Part shown: positions 52,162 through 63,911 of the stretch, one piece after another | Numbering within the stretch: position 1 is the stretch's first letter | How the letters are laid out: every line of letters begins with the position of its first letter | DNA from: Thiemannella venezuelensis | GTDB taxonomy: Bacteria; Actinomycetota; Actinomycetes; Streptosporangiales; Streptosporangiaceae | Assembly (NCBI RefSeq): GCF_014203605.1 | Contig: NZ_JACHJJ010000001.1 | Span: 620,001 to 684,000 of the forward strand | DNA: 64,000 bases | Reading direction: 5' to 3' | Program-made: the position numbers and the translations under genes | The notes under the pieces: model-generated | What the model saw: only the letters and a program-made list of their open reading frames with translations | Told to the model about the DNA's origin: nothing | Database searches by the model: none

Positions 52162-52740
52162 TCAGGAGATGACGGGCGCGGGCGGGGCGCCGGTGCCGGT
52201 CCAGGAGCCGATGAAGCCGAAGGTGGTCGAGCCGCCGGCCGGGAGGTTGCCGTTCCAGGGGGCGTTGGTGAAGGTGGAGGCGGTGCCGGAGGTGCTCAGA
52301 GCGGAGCTCCAGTTCTGGGTGACCTTCACGCCGGCCGGGTAGGTGAGGGTGGTCTTCCAGGAGGTGACGGCGGCGGTGCACGTGACGGTGACCTCGCCCT
52401 GGAAGCCGCCCTGCCAGGAGTTGACCAGCCTGTAGGCCGCCGAGCAGCCGTCCGCCGGACCGGATCCCGTGGTGAAGGCGGTGGTCGCGGAGGGGTCGGA
52501 GACGTTGCCGGCGGCGTCGCGGGCCACGACGTGCACGGTGTAGGCGGTCTCCGGGGTCAGGCCGGTCAGGGTGAGGGAGGTGGCGGCCGAGGAGCCGAGC
52601 CTGGTGGTGCCGCGGTAGACGTCGTAGCCGGTGACCCGGACGTTGTCGGTGGAGGCGGCCCAGGTCAGTGTCGCCCCCGAGGCGGTGACGTTCGAGGCGG
52701 CGGGTGTGCCCGGCCTGGACGGCGCGGTGGTGTCGTCGGG
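52162..52740 (-). repeat. FN3-CBM2 module, copy in the xylanase gene
   Basis: This 3' stretch encodes FN3 and CBM2 domains that are very similar at DNA and protein level to 53893-54470 in the mannanase gene. The final PPAPVIS and the sequences around the FN3 GYDVYRGTT motif are identical. Confidence 0.75.
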
Positions 52741-53787
52741 CGTCTCGTCGCCCGCCAGGGCGTCGTGCACCGCCGTGTAGGCCGGCTTCTTCCCGTAGTT
52801 CTCGTCGTAGATCAGCGCCGCGCCCTGGCCGGGGAAGGTGTCCGGCACCCAGGAGTACTTGTCGGTGAAGCCCCAGACGGTGACGCCGGAGCAGCGGCTC
52901 ACCGCCACGCAGGCCTTGACCACGTCGGAGTAGTAGGTGGCCTGGGTGGCGTCCTTGGCCGCGTCCCGGGGGGTTTGCATCCGGACGTCGATCTCGGTGA
53001 CCCGCACCTCGACGCCCAGGTCGGCGAAGCGCTGCATGTTCTCCCGGATGTTCGGGAAGCCGTACTGGATCGCCAGGTGGCTCTGCAGGCCGACGCAGTC
53101 GACCGGCACGTTCTGCGCCCGCAGCGACTTGACCAGGTTGTACATGGCCGTGCTCTTGGCGTTGACGCCCTCGACGTTGTAGTCGTTGATGCAGAGCGTG
53201 GCGTCGGGGTCGGCCGCGCGGGCGTACCGGAAGGCGTCGGCGATGTAGCTCTCGCCCAGCTTCTGGTACCAGAACGAGGTACGCAGGTTGCCGTTGTCGT
53301 CGAAGACCTCGTTCACCACGTCCCAGGACGTCAGGACGGGGTTGCCCGCGTAGCGGCCGGCGACCCTGCTGATGTGGTTCTGCATCGCCTCGCGCATCTC
53401 GGTGGCGCCGAGGTTCTGCACCCAGCTCGGCGTCTGGCTGTGCCAGACGAGCGTGTGGCCGTGCACCTGCTGGTCGTTCTGCTCGGCGAAGGCCATGATC
53501 TGGTCCGCGCCGGTGAAGTTGAACTGGTTCCGGCTGGGCTCGGTGGCGTCCCACTTCATCGCGTTCTCGGCGGTGACCTGGTTGAACTCCGAGGCCGCGA
53601 TGCTCCGGTAGGCGGTCTCGTTCGCCAGGGGGGAGGTGGCGAGCGCGGCGCCGACGAACTTGCCGCGCGCCTCGGCGTGCGCGCGCAGCGGGGCCGAGGC
53701 GTGGGCCGGTACGGCGGGCAGCACGGCCGCGGCGACGGGGAGGGCGGCGAGCACTCCGCTCAGGAGCGCCCTGCGCAGTCGGGACAT
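52162..53787 (-). CDS. Secreted endo-1,4-beta-xylanase, GH10-FN3-CBM2-like
   Basis: The 541-aa protein has a signal peptide (1-30), a GH10 catalytic domain (about 31-345) with acid/base E160 in TSWDVVNEVF and nucleophile E265 in VTEIDVRM, an FN3 domain (about 355-440) and a C-terminal CBM2-like domain (447-541, NSWQGGFQGEVTV). It cleaves xylan chains, with cellulose targeting by the CBM. The FN3-CBM2 part is nearly the same as in the mannanase upstream (about 82% at the protein level by eye). A GAAACTTTC palindrome lies in the promoter region. Confidence 0.95.
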   Translation of the reverse strand: MSRLRRALLSGVLAALPVAAAVLPAVPAHASAPLRAHAEARGKFVGAALATSPLANETAYRSIAASEFNQVTAENAMKWDATEPSRNQFNFTGADQIMAFAEQNDQQVHGHTLVWHSQTPSWVQNLGATEMREAMQNHISRVAGRYAGNPVLTSWDVVNEVFDDNGNLRTSFWYQKLGESYIADAFRYARAADPDATLCINDYNVEGVNAKSTAMYNLVKSLRAQNVPVDCVGLQSHLAIQYGFPNIRENMQRFADLGVEVRVTEIDVRMQTPRDAAKDATQATYYSDVVKACVAVSRCSGVTVWGFTDKYSWVPDTFPGQGAALIYDENYGKKPAYTAVHDALAGDETPDDTTAPSRPGTPAASNVTASGATLTWAASTDNVRVTGYDVYRGTTRLGSSAATSLTLTGLTPETAYTVHVVARDAAGNVSDPSATTAFTTGSGPADGCSAAYRLVNSWQGGFQGEVTVTCTAAVTSWKTTLTYPAGVKVTQNWSSALSTSGTASTFTNAPWNGNLPAGGSTTFGFIGSWTGTGAPPAPVIS

Positions 53788-53892: not shown

Positions 53893-54470
53893 TCAGGAGA
53901 TGACGGGCGCGGGCGGGGTGCCCGTGCCGGTCCAGGAGGCGATGAAGCCGAAGGTGGTCGAGCCGCCGGCCGGGATGGAGCCGTTCCAGGCGGCGTTGGA
54001 GAAGGTGAAGGCGGTACCGGAGGCCGACAGGGTCGAGCTCCAGTTCTGGGTGACCTTCACTCCGGCCGGGTAGGTCAGTGTGGTCTTCCACGAGTTCACG
54101 GCGGCGGCGCACGTGACCGTGACCTCGCCCTGGAAGCCGCCCGGCCAGGAGTTGACCGGCTTGTAGGTGGCCGCGCAGTCGCTCGGCGGGGTCGAGGTGG
54201 TCGTGAACGACGTGGTCTCGGAGGCCTCGGAGACGTTCCCGGCGGCGTCGCGGGCGACGACGTGCACGGTGTAGGCGGTCTCCGGCGTCAGACCGGTCAG
54301 GGCGAGGGAGTTCGTGGCCGAGGAACCGAGCTTGGTGGTGCCCCGGTAGACGTCGTAGCCGGTGACCCGGACGTTGTCGGTGGAGGCGGCCCAGGTCAGT
54401 GCGGCACCGGTCGAGGTGACGCCCGAGGCGGCGGGCTTGCCGGGCCGGGTGGGCGCCTCGGTGTCGGGGC
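53893..54470 (-). repeat. FN3-CBM2 module, copy in the mannanase gene
   Basis: This is the second copy of the cassette found at 52162-52740. The two differ by scattered substitutions and one or two short indels, so they diverged recently or exchange by gene conversion. The GH9 gene's FN3-CBM2 is more distant. Confidence 0.75.
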
Positions 54471-55458
54471 CGCCGCCCCCGCCGTAGATCTTCGCCTCGA
54501 CGGCGGTCTGCGCGATGCCGTTCGCACCGTTGAACAGGCGCTGGCCCCAGGGGGTCAGCTTGTTCACGTCGAAGCCGGTGACCTGGTCGAGATACTCGAC
54601 GCCGCCGCCGTTGCCGCTCCAGGACCAGCCGAAGTAGCCCAGGCCGCGCGCCTGGGCCTGGGCCATGATCGTGTCCTCGTCGGGGTTGCCGTCGGAGTGG
54701 TCGTGGCCGAACTCGCCGACCACCAGCGGCAGCCCGGCCGTCCGGAAGGCGTCCATGTAGGCGATGACCTCGGCGGAGGTGTCGAACACGCCGTACATGT
54801 GGATCGAGAAGATCGTGTTCTTGTCGGGGTCCGCGGCGGCGACGGTCTTGGCGTTGTCGCGCATGGTGAAGGACCAGTCCTGGCCCCAGTTGGGGGCGTC
54901 GACCATGAGCGCGTGGTCGAACCCGGCCGTGCGCATGCGCTTGATCGCGTTCGAGGTGGCCTCGGTCCAGCCCGGGGTGACGGCGTTGTTGCCGATCGGC
55001 TCGTTGCCGATGTTGATGATGACGTAGTCCTCCTGGCCGTCCAGCGCGCTCTTCACGCTGGTCCAGTAGTCCACGGCCGCGTCCAGGGTGTAGGCGCCGC
55101 CCTGCTCGCCGTACCCGGTGGTGTCGTGGTTCTCCAGGACGCAGATGAGCTTGTTCTGCTTGCAGAGCGAGACGACGTTGGCCACGTCGGCGGTGGTGTT
55201 GGGCGTCCACCGGCCGCCGCTCAGCACCACGCGCACGGCGTTGGCGCCCAGCGACTTGATGCCGGCGAAGGAGGCCGTCTGGCTCGTGTACCAGGTGTGC
55301 GCGTGGGAGGTGCCGCGCAGGACGAGGTTGCTCCCGTCCGCCTCGACGATCTTCGTACCGCTCACGTGGATGCCGGTGTCGGCCTGCGCGGGCGGGGCCG
55401 CGACCAGGAACGAGGTGAGTGCCGCGGCGAGCGCCGCGATGGTGAGCCGTGCTCTCAT
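53893..55458 (-). CDS. manA: Secreted beta-mannanase, GH5 (subfamily 8-like)-FN3-CBM2
   Basis: The 521-aa protein has a signal peptide (1-26), a GH5 domain (27-330) with acid/base E153 in INIGNEPIG and nucleophile E249 in LVVGEFGHDHSDG, an FN3 domain and a CBM2-like domain ending PPAPVIS. The sequence around SHAHTWYTSQTASFAGIKSL and GYFGWSWSGNGGGVEYLD is that of the Streptomyces ManA group, so beta-1,4-mannanase is the best call. A hairpin leader lies upstream. Its FN3-CBM2 cassette is shared with the xylanase. Confidence 0.93.
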   Translation of the reverse strand: MRARLTIAALAAALTSFLVAAPPAQADTGIHVSGTKIVEADGSNLVLRGTSHAHTWYTSQTASFAGIKSLGANAVRVVLSGGRWTPNTTADVANVVSLCKQNKLICVLENHDTTGYGEQGGAYTLDAAVDYWTSVKSALDGQEDYVIINIGNEPIGNNAVTPGWTEATSNAIKRMRTAGFDHALMVDAPNWGQDWSFTMRDNAKTVAAADPDKNTIFSIHMYGVFDTSAEVIAYMDAFRTAGLPLVVGEFGHDHSDGNPDEDTIMAQAQARGLGYFGWSWSGNGGGVEYLDQVTGFDVNKLTPWGQRLFNGANGIAQTAVEAKIYGGGGGPDTEAPTRPGKPAASGVTSTGAALTWAASTDNVRVTGYDVYRGTTKLGSSATNSLALTGLTPETAYTVHVVARDAAGNVSEASETTSFTTTSTPPSDCAATYKPVNSWPGGFQGEVTVTCAAAVNSWKTTLTYPAGVKVTQNWSSTLSASGTAFTFSNAAWNGSIPAGGSTTFGFIASWTGTGTPPAPVIS

Positions 55459-55613: not shown

Positions 55614-58250
<2,637 letters not shown>

Positions 58251-58304: not shown

Positions 58305-61247
58305 TCAGGGGAAGAGCCGGCCGTACTCGGCCAGGGCCACGGCCACGTCGACCTGGGCCCAGAACCGGTGGAAGGTGAAGGTCGGCGCGGGGCCGGTGCC
58401 CTTCAGGTAGGCGTCCACCTTCGGCCAGTCCGGGTCGTTCTTGTAGAAGGACCGGATGGACAGGAAGGTGGAGTTGCTGTCGATCACGTCGCCGTTGGGC
58501 ATCTTGCCGGTCCAGCCGGCCGGGACGTAGACCGGGTCGTCGAGGCGGTTGTAGTCGGCCTTGGTCTCGGTGGTCGAGACGCCCTTGGCGTCCTGGTTGT
58601 TCTTCCACATGCCGTCGAGCAGGCCCTTGGCGACGTCCCGCGCCTTGGTGTCGCCGGACTTGGCCGCGTAGTACATCAGGACCTTGGCGTAGGAGCCCGC
58701 CACGCCGACATCGGTCGTGTAGTCGCGGATGCTGACGTGCAGGCCCGCGTTGGAGCCGGGGCTGGACGGGTTCCAGGTGTCGGGCTGGCCGGTCCACACC
58801 AGCGTCGAGGGGATCTGGTAGGTCCCGTCGGCGTTGATCGTGGTGTTGTCGGTGGCCCACTTGACCCACTTGTCCAGCACGACCTTGGCGTCGGCGTTGC
58901 CGGTGGCGTAGTACAGCTCCGCCACGCGCTCCATCGACCAGGCCTGGAAGCCGAACCACTGGTTCGACGGCGGGTCGTGGTAGACCGGCTGCCAGTCGTA
59001 GGCCATGCCGTAGAAGGTCGGCAGGTTCGACGGCGGCGCGGCGTAGTGGCCCTGCCAGCTGTTGGTCGCGCCGCCCGCGATCGCGCCCTCGCTCGACTGC
59101 AGCCAGCGGTAGAACTCCAGCTGCCGGTCCAGGCTCTTGTCCCAGTCCTGTACGGCGGTCGCGCCCTTGGGCTTGAGCGCGTCCACGCTGGACAGCACCC
59201 AGGCGGCCATCGGGTTCTGGTAGCCGGAGTGGTTGTGGCTGGAGCCGATCCGCCAGGCCCAGCCCGCGGAGGTGTCGATCGCGCCGCCCCAGGCGTAGTA
59301 CCAGCTCAGCAGGTAGGCCGAGCTGTCCTTGCCGGTGCCCGCGGGGCACGAGGTGCTGGTGCAGCCCTGCTTCTTGAAGTACTTGTCGTACATCGCGTAG
59401 CGCAGGTAGTCGCCCATCTTCGCGGCCTTGGCGACCGAGGAGGCGACCTGCGACTCCTTGCCCTGCTCCTTGGCCCAGGTGTGCGCCCAGTAGGCGACCT
59501 GGACGGCGCGGGCGTCGGCGTCGGGGGCGTTGGTGTACTTCCACTGCTTGGCGTAGGAGGAGTCACCGGTGAACAGGTCCAGGTACCCGTTCTTGCCGCC
59601 GTGCTTGAAGGTGTCGCAGGACGGCTGCGGGACGGTCTCGAAGACCGACTCCTCCGGGCCGCGCTGGTAGGTGTTGATGTAGGCGGGCCTGGTCGTGCCG
59701 TCGCCGCAGCGGCCGAAGCCGTAGGTGTTGTCGACGTCGAGCAGCCAGTGCATGCCGTACACGTCGCTGGTGCCGTAGGCGGTCTTCAGCTCGTTCGCGA
59801 TCGGGTCCACGCCGACGCTCACGCCGCCGTCCAGCTTGGACGGGTACTGCTTGATGTCGTCCCACTCACCGGCGTAGGTCGCGGGCTTGGAGGGGTTGTA
59901 GAACGAGTTCGTCGGCTGGTCGGCGGTGGCCGGGATGATGTACTTCTCCATCGACGCCCAGGCCGCGTTGAACTTGCTCCAGTCGCCGGTCACCTTGCCG
60001 TAGGCGGCCTCCAGCCACAGGTAGTAGCTGTAGGCCTCGGAGGTGGTCTCGTGCCCGTGGTCGGGCGCCTCGACGAGGAAGGTCTCGACCGAGTGGTACG
60101 GCACGCCCTCGGGCGAGAAGTAGCCGTTGGCCGGGTCCTTGAGCTTGTTGTACATCGTGGTGAAGCGCTTGATGTACTCGTTGTCGCCGCCGGGGGTGTC
60201 GTTGTCCACCTCGGTGGCGGAGGCCTTCCCGGCGGTGTGGCCGGTGGCGGTGGCGGTGAACTCGGCGCTGCCGGAGGTCGTGTCGGCGTCCTCGGCGGCC
60301 TTGATCTGCACCGTCTGGGCGGTGTCCCAGTTCGCCGGGGTGAACGTCAGCGAGGCCCCGGTGCCGACCGTGAGGTCGGCGTCCCCGCTGGTCCTGGCGG
60401 TCGCCACGGTGACGTTCGCCGCCGGGGCCTTGGATAGCTTGACCGACAGGGTCGCGGCGTCCCCCTCGGGCACGGCGAGCGTGGCGGGGGTGACGACCAC
60501 GGCGGGCGCGGCGTCGGCCTTCACGCTGATCCCGACCGGGTCGGAGGTCTTCGTCAGGCCCTTGTCGTCGGTGGCCTTGGCGGTGATGGAGTAGTCGCCG
60601 GCCGGCACGCCGGTCCAGTCGTGGGAGTACGGCGCGCTGGTGTCGGCGCCCAGCAGCGTGGTGCCGTTGTAGAACTCGACCTTGGCCACCGTGCCGTCGG
60701 AGTCGGAGGCGTCGGCGGCGATCTCCACCGTGGCGGGCGCGGTGAAGCTCGCCCCGGCGACCGGCTTGGTGAGTTTCACGGCGGGGGCCTGGTTGCCCGG
60801 CCCGCCCCCGCAGGTGACGCCGTTGATCGTGAAGGAGGTCGGCTTGGGGTTGCTCCCGGACCAGCTGCCGTTGAAGCCGATGCTCGTCGAGGCGCCGGTG
60901 GCGAGCTTGCCGTTCCAGTCCATGCTCTTGGCGGTGACCGCGGTGCCGCTCTGCGACCAGGTCGCACTCCAGCCCTGGACGAGCTTCTGCGTGGCGGTCG
61001 GGAAGTCGAAGCCCAGGGTCCAGCCGTCCAGCGGGTCGCCCAGGTTCTTGATCGTGACACTGGCGGTGAAACCGCCCTGCCAGTCGTTGGTCGAGTAGGC
61101 GACGTCACACGAGACGGCCGCGTGAGCGGGCGAGGCCGTCAGCGCGGTCGTCATCCCGGCCGTCAGGCTGAGCAGAGCCAGCGCCGCGACGCGTCTCCGC
61201 CTCCTGGGGTGTGGGAGCGCTCCCGCTCTCGTGGGGTTCAGATGCAT
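58305..61247 (-). CDS. Secreted GH48 cellobiohydrolase, CBM2-Ig-like-Calx-beta-like-GH48
   Basis: The 980-aa protein (ATG 61247) has a signal peptide (about 1-43), an N-terminal CBM2 (about 44-150), a Big-type Ig domain (about 155-245, [15 protein letters not shown]), a Calx-beta-like domain (about 246-340, [18 protein letters not shown]), and a full GH48 domain (about 345-980). The active-site glutamate lies in [21 protein letters not shown]48 enzymes are reducing-end processive cellobiohydrolases, the key exo-enzyme of bacterial cellulose systems. A CebR-type box lies 82 bp upstream and a second within the signal-peptide codons. Confidence 0.95.
61212..61225. promoter_or_regulatory. CebR-type box inside the GH48 signal-peptide codons
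   Basis: TGGGAGCGCTCCCG matches the CebR/CelR box at 13 of 14 bases. It lies 22-35 nt downstream of the ATG and encodes part of RAGALP. Its centre is 117 bp from the centre of the upstream box. Confidence 0.75.
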
Positions 61248-61328
61248 GGGAAAAGGTCCTCCAGGGGTGATTCGCCGCAATTTCGCTGGTAGAGGCATCG
61301 CGTCGGATCAGGCAGGGGTGAGAATCTG

Positions 61329-61342
61329 TGGGAGCGCTCCCA
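61329..61342. promoter_or_regulatory. CebR/CelR box upstream of the GH48 gene
   Basis: The perfect 14-bp palindrome TGGGAGCGCTCCCA is the operator of cellobiose-responsive LacI-type repressors (CebR in Streptomyces, CelR in Thermobifida). It is 82-95 bp upstream of the GH48 start. No cebR gene is in the window. Confidence 0.9.
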
Positions 61343-61727: not shown

Positions 61728-63911
61728 TCAGGGCAGGGGCGGGCTGGCCAGCCGGGCGCGCTCCAGGGCGAGTTCCGGCCAGAACGTCCCCGGGGGCGGG
61801 GTCTCCGCACGGTAGACGGGGTCCTCGGGACCGTCGGTGCCGCGCGTGCAGGGCCCGTTGGCGTGGCCGGGCACGGAGATCCACAGGTAGGCGTCGACCA
61901 GTTCGCCGCTCGTCGCCGTCGTCGGCCGGAAGCCGACGCCTCGGCCGGGAGGGTTGCACCAGGTCTGCGGCTTCGGATAGGCCGTCTCGGGAACCCACTC
62001 GCCCCGGCCGTTGCGGCTGGTGTCGATCACGAAGTGCGGCAGCGCGGCCGGGTCGTCCGGCGCCGCCGCGATCTCCGCGTCGAGGCAGTCGTCCGTTCCC
62101 GCCGTCACCTGGACGTACACGCATCTGGCGAGCCGGGCGCCGTAGGCGGCGAGTCCTTCCGTCCGCTGGTACCCGCTCGCGTTGAGGAAGAAGCCGTCGG
62201 CCTCGGTGATCTTCGCCTTGACGAGCCGCCGGCCCATTTCGCTCAGCGCGGGCCACTTCTCGAAGCTGCCGTCGAGGTAGACGGCGGTGCGGGGCAGCTC
62301 GCCGAGCCGTTCGACCGCGTAGGAGAGGTCGCCGAAGCGGCGCTCGGTGGCCGCGTCGTCACCCAGCCCGCACTCCTCCGTACCGGGGATCTTCACGAGG
62401 CTCTCCGGTTCCAGGATCACCACGGCCCGCGCGTCGCCGATCTCCTCGGCGACCTGGTCGATCCAGGACCGGTAGGCGGAGGCGTCCGCCGCGCCGCCGG
62501 CCGGACGGCAGTTCCTGAGCGGCACGTTGTAGCCGACGAAGACCGGGACGGAGCCGGCCTTCCCGGCCGCGCGCAGGGTCGCGGCGACGGTACGGCGGGC
62601 CTTGTCCGCAGGGCCCTTCAACCAGACGGCCTGGGGGACCGCGGCCAGCGCCTCCATCAGCTCCGCGTCCCGCGCCCGGCCGGCCGCGGCCCAGAGCCTC
62701 GCCTGCCCGGCGGCCTCGTTCTCCGGCGCGAACAGGCGGACGCCCTCTTCGTCGAGGGGGTTGGGGCCGGTGGCGCCGAGCGGAGGGGCGGAGGAGGACG
62801 GGGCGGCGGGCCCGCTCGCCGGCCCCCGCTCCACCGCGCCCGACGCGGCGGGGGAGGACACCGCGGAGGACGGCCCAGCGGGAGACGACGCGGACGGGAC
62901 GGCTTCCCCCGCGGAGCCCGCCTGCGGCACGACGAAGGCCGCGGCCACCGCGGCCGCGACGGCCGCCAGGGCTCCCGCACCCGTCCACGGGCGGCGGCCG
63001 AACGCCGTCAGGGCGCCCCTGAGGGCCGGTCCGCGGCCCTCCTCCCCGCCCGGAGCCCCTCGCGTGCCGCGGGCCCGGCCCGCGGTTGCGCCGGGGTCCA
63101 CGGGCAGCACCCCCGAACCCGTGCTGAGCGCGTCCAGCAGGTCCTGCGGGGTCGGGCGGGCGGCGGGATCCTTGGCGAGGGCGGCCGTGACGAGCGGGAG
63201 GAGGCGATCGGGCAGCCCGGACAGGTCGGGCTCGCCGTGCGCCACCCGGTACAGGAGGGCGGGGACGGCTCCGGTGCCGAAGGGCCCGTGCCCGGTGGCG
63301 GCGTAGACGAGCACCCCGCCCCAGGCGAAGACGTCCGATGCCGGGGTGGCCGGGTCTCCCTTCACCTGCTCCGGCGACATGAACGCGGGGGTGCCGACCA
63401 GCACGCTGCTGGTCTTGCCGGAGCCCTCGGCCAGCCGGGCGATGCCGAAGTCGATGACCCTGGGCCCGACCGGGGAGAGCAGCACGTTCGAGGGTTTGAG
63501 GTCACGGTGGACGACCTGGGCCCCGTGGATGGCCCGCAGGGCGACCGCGATGCTGGCGGCCAGGCCGTCGAGGCTGGAGCCGGTGAGCGGGCCGCCGGTC
63601 CGGACGGCCTGCTCCAGGCTGGGGCCGGGCACGAACTCCGTCGCCAGGTAGGCCAGGGCGCCGTCCACGTCGGCGGCGAGCACCGGGGCGGTGCAGAACC
63701 GGGCGACCCGCTGGGCGGCGGTCACCTCCTGCCGGAACCGGCCGCGGAAGCCGGGATCGTCGGCGAGGTGCGCGTGGATCACCTTGACCGCCACCTGGGC
63801 GCCCGCCTCGTCACGGGCGAGGTAGACCAGGCCCATCCCGCCCTGGCCGAGGCGGCCGAGCAGGGTGTAGGGGCCGATCCGGCGCGGATCGCCGTCCCTC
63901 AGCTCGTCCAT
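61728..63911 (-). CDS. Membrane Ser/Thr protein kinase fused to an extracellular GH6-like domain with lost catalytic residues
   Basis: The 727-aa protein has a Hanks-type kinase domain (about 12-265) with glycine loop LGQGGMGLVY, K43 in VAVKVI, HRDLKPSN (D137), D154-F-G and MSPEQ, so it should be active. A single span (about 312-329) and a Ser/Ala/Pro linker follow. Residues ~385-727 form a GH6 cellulase fold, recognised by YNVPLRNC, VILEPESL, FVIDTSRNG, TWCNPPGRG and DAYLWISVPG. Canonical catalytic aspartates are replaced: R-D-C reads R466-N467-C468, E-P-D reads E501-P502-E503, and the PGxxDG aspartate is N685 (PGHANG). I infer a non-hydrolytic carbohydrate receptor that signals through the kinase. 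It lies directly upstream of the cellulase genes, same strand. Confidence 0.9.
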   Translation of the reverse strand: MDELRDGDPRRIGPYTLLGRLGQGGMGLVYLARDEAGAQVAVKVIHAHLADDPGFRGRFRQEVTAAQRVARFCTAPVLAADVDGALAYLATEFVPGPSLEQAVRTGGPLTGSSLDGLAASIAVALRAIHGAQVVHRDLKPSNVLLSPVGPRVIDFGIARLAEGSGKTSSVLVGTPAFMSPEQVKGDPATPASDVFAWGGVLVYAATGHGPFGTGAVPALLYRVAHGEPDLSGLPDRLLPLVTAALAKDPAARPTPQDLLDALSTGSGVLPVDPGATAGRARGTRGAPGGEEGRGPALRGALTAFGRRPWTGAGALAAVAAAVAAAFVVPQAGSAGEAVPSASSPAGPSSAVSSPAASGAVERGPASGPAAPSSSAPPLGATGPNPLDEEGVRLFAPENEAAGQARLWAAAGRARDAELMEALAAVPQAVWLKGPADKARRTVAATLRAAGKAGSVPVFVGYNVPLRNCRPAGGAADASAYRSWIDQVAEEIGDARAVVILEPESLVKIPGTEECGLGDDAATERRFGDLSYAVERLGELPRTAVYLDGSFEKWPALSEMGRRLVKAKITEADGFFLNASGYQRTEGLAAYGARLARCVYVQVTAGTDDCLDAEIAAAPDDPAALPHFVIDTSRNGRGEWVPETAYPKPQTWCNPPGRGVGFRPTTATSGELVDAYLWISVPGHANGPCTRGTDGPEDPVYRAETPPPGTFWPELALERARLASPPLP

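Follow-up and report, generated by a model that had tools for sequence, protein, structure and literature searches.

Can a secreted cellulase be turned into the outer part of a receptor kinase, and if so, what does such a receptor sense? This question is raised by one gene in a 64,000-nucleotide stretch of Thiemannella venezuelensis (contig NZ_JACHJJ010000001.1, positions 620,001 to 684,000), here called the window. The gene occupies 61728-63911 on the minus strand; it starts with ATG at 63911, runs down to 61728 and encodes 727 residues, with a Ser/Thr kinase, a transmembrane segment and a domain resembling glycoside hydrolase family 6 (GH6) in one open reading frame (ORF). It is very probably a receptor kinase with a dead, pseudo-cellulase GH6 ectodomain. 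Sequence analysis supports its architecture, its fold, the loss of its catalytic triad, a single origin in the tree and purifying selection. A preliminary description, made from the window alone, had read the protein as a cellulose sensor at the head of a cellulase cluster, and this part of its account stands less well.

Architecture, catalytic triad and sugar-binding site

The cytoplasmic kinase domain (residues 15-260; 63132-63869, minus strand) matched Pfam PF00069 with 123.8 bits. The extracellular GH6-like domain (residues 381-727; 61731-62771, minus strand) matched PF01341 over residues 410-691 with 175.6 bits against a cut-off of 27, and both Pfam matches were well over their cut-offs. 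K43, HRD137 and DFG154 were present as first described, so the kinase was rightly called intact. The best hydrophobic stretch between the two domains (about residues 309-328; 62928-62987, minus strand) showed a mean hydropathy of 2.1, with arginines before it and a Pro/Ala/Ser-rich linker after it, which agrees with the single membrane span proposed earlier. Among the 72 distinct kinase-linked members of the family, 70 showed a hydropathy of at least 1.6 for this span. The predicted topology places the N-terminal kinase inside the cell and the GH6 domain at the C-terminus outside; the latter contains six cysteines (468, 514, 597, 609, 652 and 688). An AlphaFold model of the ectodomain from a 23-sequence alignment gave a predicted local distance difference test score (pLDDT) of 86.2 and a predicted template modelling score (pTM) of 0.88. 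The closest structures to this model were GH6 enzymes, with Mycobacterium tuberculosis Cel6 (1up0) at Z 34.1 and a root-mean-square deviation of 2.5 over 283 aligned residues. Foldseek likewise returned GH6 as best match (E 2.5e-23), and the GH6 fold of the outside domain is thereby upheld.

In Cel6A of Trichoderma reesei (TrCel6A), D221 is the proton donor and D175, equivalent to D79 of Thermobifida fusca Cel6A (TfCel6A), can accept the proton via a water; S181 and D401 position the catalytic water, K395, E399 and D401 bind the −1 sugar, Y169 puckers the sugar, and W135, W269 and W367 hold sugar rings (excerpts of PMC6091422). In alignments to solved GH6 chains, the window protein carried N467 at the base Asp position (D79/D175; codon 62511-62513), E503 at the catalytic acid Asp position (D117/D221; codon 62403-62405) and N685 at the D265/D401 position (codon 61857-61859), all on the minus strand. 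The motifs R-D79-C, E-P-D117 and PGEAD265G were changed to R-N467-C, E-P-E503 and PGHAN685G, which confirmed the three substitutions named in the preliminary description. T. fusca residue numbers were counted along the structural-chain alignment; the remaining equivalences between the T. reesei and T. fusca enzymes are assumed from number offsets.

The window protein lacks the active triad of GH6, and loss of the hydrolytic triad is a family-wide rule. We aligned 110 domains, 73 of them kinase-linked (72 distinct) and 37 others, comprising all 72 matches from the search of the order described below, G094 and stand-alone relatives. L081 and L003 (copies of L001 and L083) were removed before counting, the fragment L138_43 was left out of the alignments, and L216 was not included either. 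The Asp-Asp-Asp triad was found in 0/73 kinase-linked rows, where the commonest pattern was D-N-N (20 rows), and in 36/37 rows without a kinase match. The lone exception, L135, begins at a contig edge; it was counted as a truncated fused member because its triad is broken, it groups with the fused clade and its frame is cut by the contig. The acid Asp was kept in 1/73 kinase-linked rows, most relatives having N, G or S at position 503, and the D401-equivalent in 11/73.

The sugar-binding site showed a mixed picture. The window protein has S679 at the K395 position and H683 at the E399 position, and keeps the four landmark aromatics W430, Y461, W553 and W651. Across the kinase-linked rows the W367-equivalent was present in 73/73, the W269-equivalent was W in 61/73 and Y in 11/73, and the D263-equivalent was retained. 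The K395-, E399- and Y169-equivalents were kept in 0/73, 5/73 and 6/73 rows, respectively. The active-site loop from C468 to Y480 had 14 residues in 36/36 stand-alone rows and 11 in 62/73 fused rows. A smaller set of 35 fused rows (L135 included) and 29 stand-alone rows was used for conserved columns and for the tree. The stand-alone rows had 55 columns conserved at 95% or more, and 20 of these were lost in the fused rows; the named catalytic or substrate positions were lost at 6/8 compared with 14/47 for the other conserved columns (p 0.02, or 0.008 if a lost Ser column is counted that was left out of the named positions because it lies one residue off S181 in T. fusca). The earlier suggestion of a probably retained sugar tunnel stands less well. 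It holds for the W367 platform and mostly for the W269 platform; it does not hold for K395, E399, D401 and Y169, which are mostly lost, or for the loop, which is usually shorter. With much of the −1 site gone, binding would differ from substrate binding or would target another ligand.

Distribution, origin and selection

When 100 genomes of the same family were searched with the ectodomain, 53 had a GH6 match and 19, the window's genome included, had the fused type. A clear gap in E values separated the fused type (at most 2.8e-97) from ordinary GH6 (at least 7.5e-36). A profile search (A1) of 297 genomes of the order at E 1e-45 matched 75 genomes with 90 rows. Counted by hand, 72 of these matches, including the window gene, were of the fused type and came from 58/297 genomes; the rest were one stand-alone domain per genome in genera g38 and g67 (15 genomes), matches in two further genomes, and a single fragment. 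The search for further proteins with kinase, membrane span and GH6 domain, suggested in the preliminary description, was thus amply answered, and recurrence in so many genomes argues that the architecture is not due to chance. A kinase match lay in the same frame for 71/72 fused-type matches, and the remaining one starts at a contig edge. The K, HRD and DFG patterns were present in 71/72 distinct kinase-linked members, L182 being the exception. When 394 genomes of the class were searched at E 1e-50, 16 matches fell outside the own family; 13 of them were examined and had no kinase in frame, and the other three are frames of 504, 535 and 612 residues. The kinase-GH6 group is so far found in one bacterial family, Streptosporangiaceae. 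A contig scan gave a full-length match at 3/49 loci (Planobispora and Planomonospora), the other 46 matching one part only. Statements on second matches rest on searches in which the number of scored candidates was capped, at 7 for the order and at 21 for the family.

Some members depart from the common form. In L182 (G182:C44), the kinase part does not share the frame of the GH6-like part, which looks intact; the copy may be decaying or contain a sequencing error. L136 (G295:C158) is a 560-residue frame in which the kinase is joined to the GH6-like domain, linker and span being absent, either by internal deletion or by an assembly fault. At L138, a third GH6-like fragment with an internal stop (G156:C36:461118-461498) adjoins two intact copies. 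Neighbouring pairs of GH6-kinase genes were found in L085, L088, L089, L137 and L138. Triad positions differed between the paired copies in all of these except L089; the ligands of such paralogous receptors may therefore differ.

In a maximum-likelihood tree, all fused domains lay together on one side of a single branch with 100/100 support. Their sister group, with 97/86 support under midpoint rooting, was the secreted, triad-intact GH6 of genera g38 and g67. Perfect TGGGAGCGCTCCCA operators for CelR, the regulator whose site and regulon of actinobacterial cellulose genes are described in excerpts of PMC3377646, were found in 15/15 of the sister stand-alone loci (L125-L132, L209-L215). The tree and these operators suggest that a kinase apparently captured, once, an enzyme belonging to the cellobiose regulon or a near ancestor of that enzyme. 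At L125 and L126, a further perfect CelR site lies before a sugar-binding-protein gene.

The ratio of nonsynonymous to synonymous substitution (dN/dS) of the GH6 part, by a simple Nei-Gojobori count that is crude at high G+C, was 0.13-0.51 in 10/10 chosen pairs and below that of the linker in 10/10. The fused GH6 domain is under purifying selection. The single clade, the absence of an intact triad and this selection together point to one fusion, after which catalysis was lost and the domain was kept as a receptor. Another source for the ectodomain, the GH6 of a tip-glucan operon (CslZ), was rejected: two stand-alone relatives from genus g87, L154 and L155, adjoin xanthine-dehydrogenase-type genes and have no csl operon.

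Ligand and signalling role

The best overall explanation, which we consider probable, is that the fused, catalytically dead GH6 domain has been kept as a glycan-binding receptor that signals through the kinase. The ectodomain would descend from a secreted GH6 endoglucanase that was joined once to a kinase in an ancestor within Streptosporangiaceae. Catalysis would have been lost after the fusion, by substitutions differing between lineages, with the fold retained. The non-catalytic domain would bind an extracellular glycan, most likely β-glucan or cello-oligosaccharide, via the kept aromatic platforms, and ligand binding would alter kinase dimerisation and autophosphorylation. Ancestry and retained aromatics tip the balance modestly towards a glycan ligand. 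In Planomonospora and Planobispora, the kinase could plausibly report polymer availability to the cellulose-utilisation programme, because the gene lies in a cellulase locus beside LacI and a second kinase that share a CelR operator; in the other carriers, outputs are probably different. A wider version of this account is offered tentatively: one family may have converted a secreted cellulase of the cellobiose regulon into a receptor kinase by one fusion, with a polymer-sensing phosphorylation branch beside CelR, and kept it, even in lineages where no cellulases are recognisable, to detect β-glucan of foreign or own origin.

Several observations weigh against this explanation. The tree was rooted at its midpoint, and dN/dS of the GH6 part exceeded that of the kinase in 9/10 pairs, i.e. 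the GH6 part is less constrained. In the binding site, the W135-equivalent was kept in 33/73 kinase-linked rows and gone in 40/73, and the W269-equivalent was Y or G in 12. In the triad, the base Asp was kept in 49/73 rows, and E503, a chemically conservative replacement of the acid Asp, is still an acid; from these residues, trace activity is conceivable in some members. L090 (G095:C33) is the sole fused member with the acid Asp; its triad reads A-D-D, with the D401-equivalent kept and Ala at the base position, and for its genome no further GH6, GH48 or GH9 was shown. As far as contigs reach, GH48 adjoins the gene in only 4/19 carriers, all of them Planomonospora and Planobispora. Six of the 19 carriers had no GH48 and no GH6 besides that of the kinase, and five of those six also had no GH9; one of the five, G094, is a genome 78% complete. 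In the window's genome, a search that tolerated up to two mismatches gave no CelR site between the start of the GH6-kinase gene and the divergent STAS gene.

These points bear first on a possible alternative that we rate below the glycan-receptor explanation. The ligand may have switched to an envelope polymer of the cell itself or to a partner protein, so that the kinase regulates growth or development and the cellulase setting in Planomonospora is later and incidental. The five carriers without GH48, GH9 or a second GH6 would be expected on such a switch, and the loss of much of the −1 subsite with the shortened loop would fit it as well. Most of 20 representative neighbour proteins in the other carriers were unrelated to glycans by Pfam (leuA, Era-type GTPase, GNAT, aminotransferase), and no CelR-like site with up to two mismatches was found in 16/16 other carrier neighbourhoods of 12-19 kb. 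Against a switch stand the retained W367-, D263- and mostly W269-equivalents and the CelR operators by the sister gene. GH48 co-occurrence was also mildly raised (13/19 carriers compared with 33/81 other genomes, p 0.04, relatedness uncorrected); in nine carriers with GH48 elsewhere, it lay on another contig or megabases from the kinase gene. Two neighbour groups of the other carriers may also have to do with glycans: a protein with DUF4434, a glycosidase-like domain, at 4 loci, and a transporter of sugar type at 3 loci.

Little weight is given to the idea that the protein senses cellulose directly and phosphorylates a regulator, e.g. the adjacent LacI, to switch on the neighbouring cellulases, although the locus itself invites it. 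Along the minus strand follow a LacI regulator, a second membrane Ser/Thr kinase (STPK2), the oppositely oriented STAS gene, the GH6-kinase, GH48, GH9, GH5 and GH10. As first described, the cellulase neighbours lie downstream of the kinase gene on its strand: by Pfam, they are a GH48 family protein with CBM2 (58305-61298), a GH9 family protein with CBM3 and CBM2 (55614-58139), a GH5 family protein with CBM2 (53893-55458) and a GH10 family protein with CBM2 (52162-53787). In five genomes of Planomonospora and Planobispora, the locus contains LacI, STPK2, STAS and GH48, and the window protein has all four of W430, Y461, W553 and W651, which would suit cellulose binding.

The operators in the window's genome argue the other way. 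A site search placed a perfect CelR-type operator, TGGGAGCGCTCCCA, in the gap between kinase and GH48, next to the GH48 start (61329-61342), and a second site, differing at one position, within the 5' end of the GH48 ORF (61212-61225). The other loci of Planomonospora and Planobispora have this one-mismatch site too, at a distance of 117-118 bp from the perfect one. About 430 bp, including the CelR-type operator, separate the kinase gene from GH48; the two are thus neighbours that probably do not form a single operon. The operator at GH48 already offers cellobiose control (excerpts of PMC3377646), and the kinase gene has none. STPK2 (L080:12729-14291) is a competitor for the role: the LacI gene that precedes it carries a CelR operator, and STPK2 may be the true kinase of the cellobiose regulon at this locus. 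The LacI gene overlaps the STPK2 gene (L080:12729-15339, i.e. 64728-67338 in window numbering, just past the window), and the operator at the LacI start is perfect.

Linkage to the cellulases was moreover observed in one clade only, and direct control of the adjacent cellulases by the kinase is doubtful; as a general family role it is unlikely. Membership of a cellulase operon as a family trait was rejected on the neighbourhood and GH48 data, within the reach set by contig ends (the L087 gene is at a contig start) and with Pfam applied to the 20 representative neighbour proteins. The cellulose sensor over a cellulase cluster proposed at the outset thus keeps its footing in the GH48-adjoining locus of Planomonospora and Planobispora; it loses it with GH48 beside the gene in 4/19 carriers, no CelR site in the 16 other neighbourhoods and five carriers without GH48, GH9 or a second GH6.

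That the protein is an enzyme tethered to the membrane with weak remaining hydrolysis of glucan, i.e. kinase and cellulase in one, is very unlikely. E503 could donate a proton in principle, 49/73 rows keep the base Asp, and D175A mutants of TrCel6A retain residual activity, for which simulations favour rescue by water (excerpts of PMC6091422). The acid Asp in 1/73, the K395-equivalent in 0/73, the D401-equivalent in 11/73 and the full triad in 0/73 rows speak against it. A non-functional relic, or an artefact of assembly or annotation that joined two genes, might be suspected from the broken-looking copies L182 and L136 and the G156 fragment with its stop, and is hardly credible for an architecture found in one frame in 71 members from dozens of assemblies, with purifying selection on both domains.

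Comparison with known systems

The signals of many bacterial Ser/Thr kinases are unknown, and the ancestry of this ectodomain points to a specific ligand class. If the kinase does sense the polymer, an insoluble-substrate branch would be added to the cellobiose control of actinobacterial cellulases. The CelR-regulated Ser/Thr kinases Sros_0943 and Tbis_0860, which lie beside LacI (Anderson et al. 2012; PMC3377646, excerpts of which carry no mention of GH6), have an arrangement matched by STPK2. They resemble this neighbour in arrangement, and differ from the GH6-kinase, which lacks a CelR operator of its own.

PASTA kinases of PknB type and AfsK are likewise Hanks-type kinases of bacteria, with other C-terminal domains. 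In NCBIfam, AfsK was the top-scoring model for the window protein with 262.8 bits over residues 1-418, below the curated cut-off of 1300.

RsgI6 of Clostridium thermocellum is similar in having an outside GH domain of very low activity that acts as a polysaccharide-binding sensor (excerpts of PMC4711584); its output is an anti-sigma factor and its domain GH10, in contrast to the kinase and GH6 here. No RsgI family was among the Pfam matches of the window protein, and its N-terminal domain is Pkinase, so it is not a biosensor of RsgI type. Tobacco CHRK1 and the plant GH18-kinase receptors, of which 91 sequences were counted, are also receptor kinases with a glycoside-hydrolase-family ectodomain, predicted to be enzymatic there (excerpts of PMC5485988). 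These differ from the window protein in being GH18 proteins and plant receptor-like kinases. CHRK1 itself is reported to lack the essential Glu.

No bacterial kinase with a GH6 ectodomain was found described in the open-access literature, subscription journals and preprints lying outside this scope. The earlier statement that no kinase of such design was known holds to that extent for the GH6-kinase; it fails for the broader principle, given the GH-ectodomain receptor kinases of plants and the GH10-type sensor of Clostridium. GH-type sensing ectodomains are thus already known, and the novel part is the family-wide conversion of an enzyme into a receptor.

With M. tuberculosis Cel6, T. fusca Cel6A and the g38/g67 sister GH6, the ectodomain shares its fold, cysteines, several aromatic and scaffold residues and its ancestry. 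These stand-alone relatives are separate proteins with the Asp triad intact, whereas the window protein is fused to a kinase and has lost the triad. With a single fusion, a sister enzyme whose triad is intact, and dozens of descendants that all have a broken triad, this is a clean natural case of an enzyme that became a receptor, and the g38/g67 sisters are good comparison enzymes for the receptor domain.

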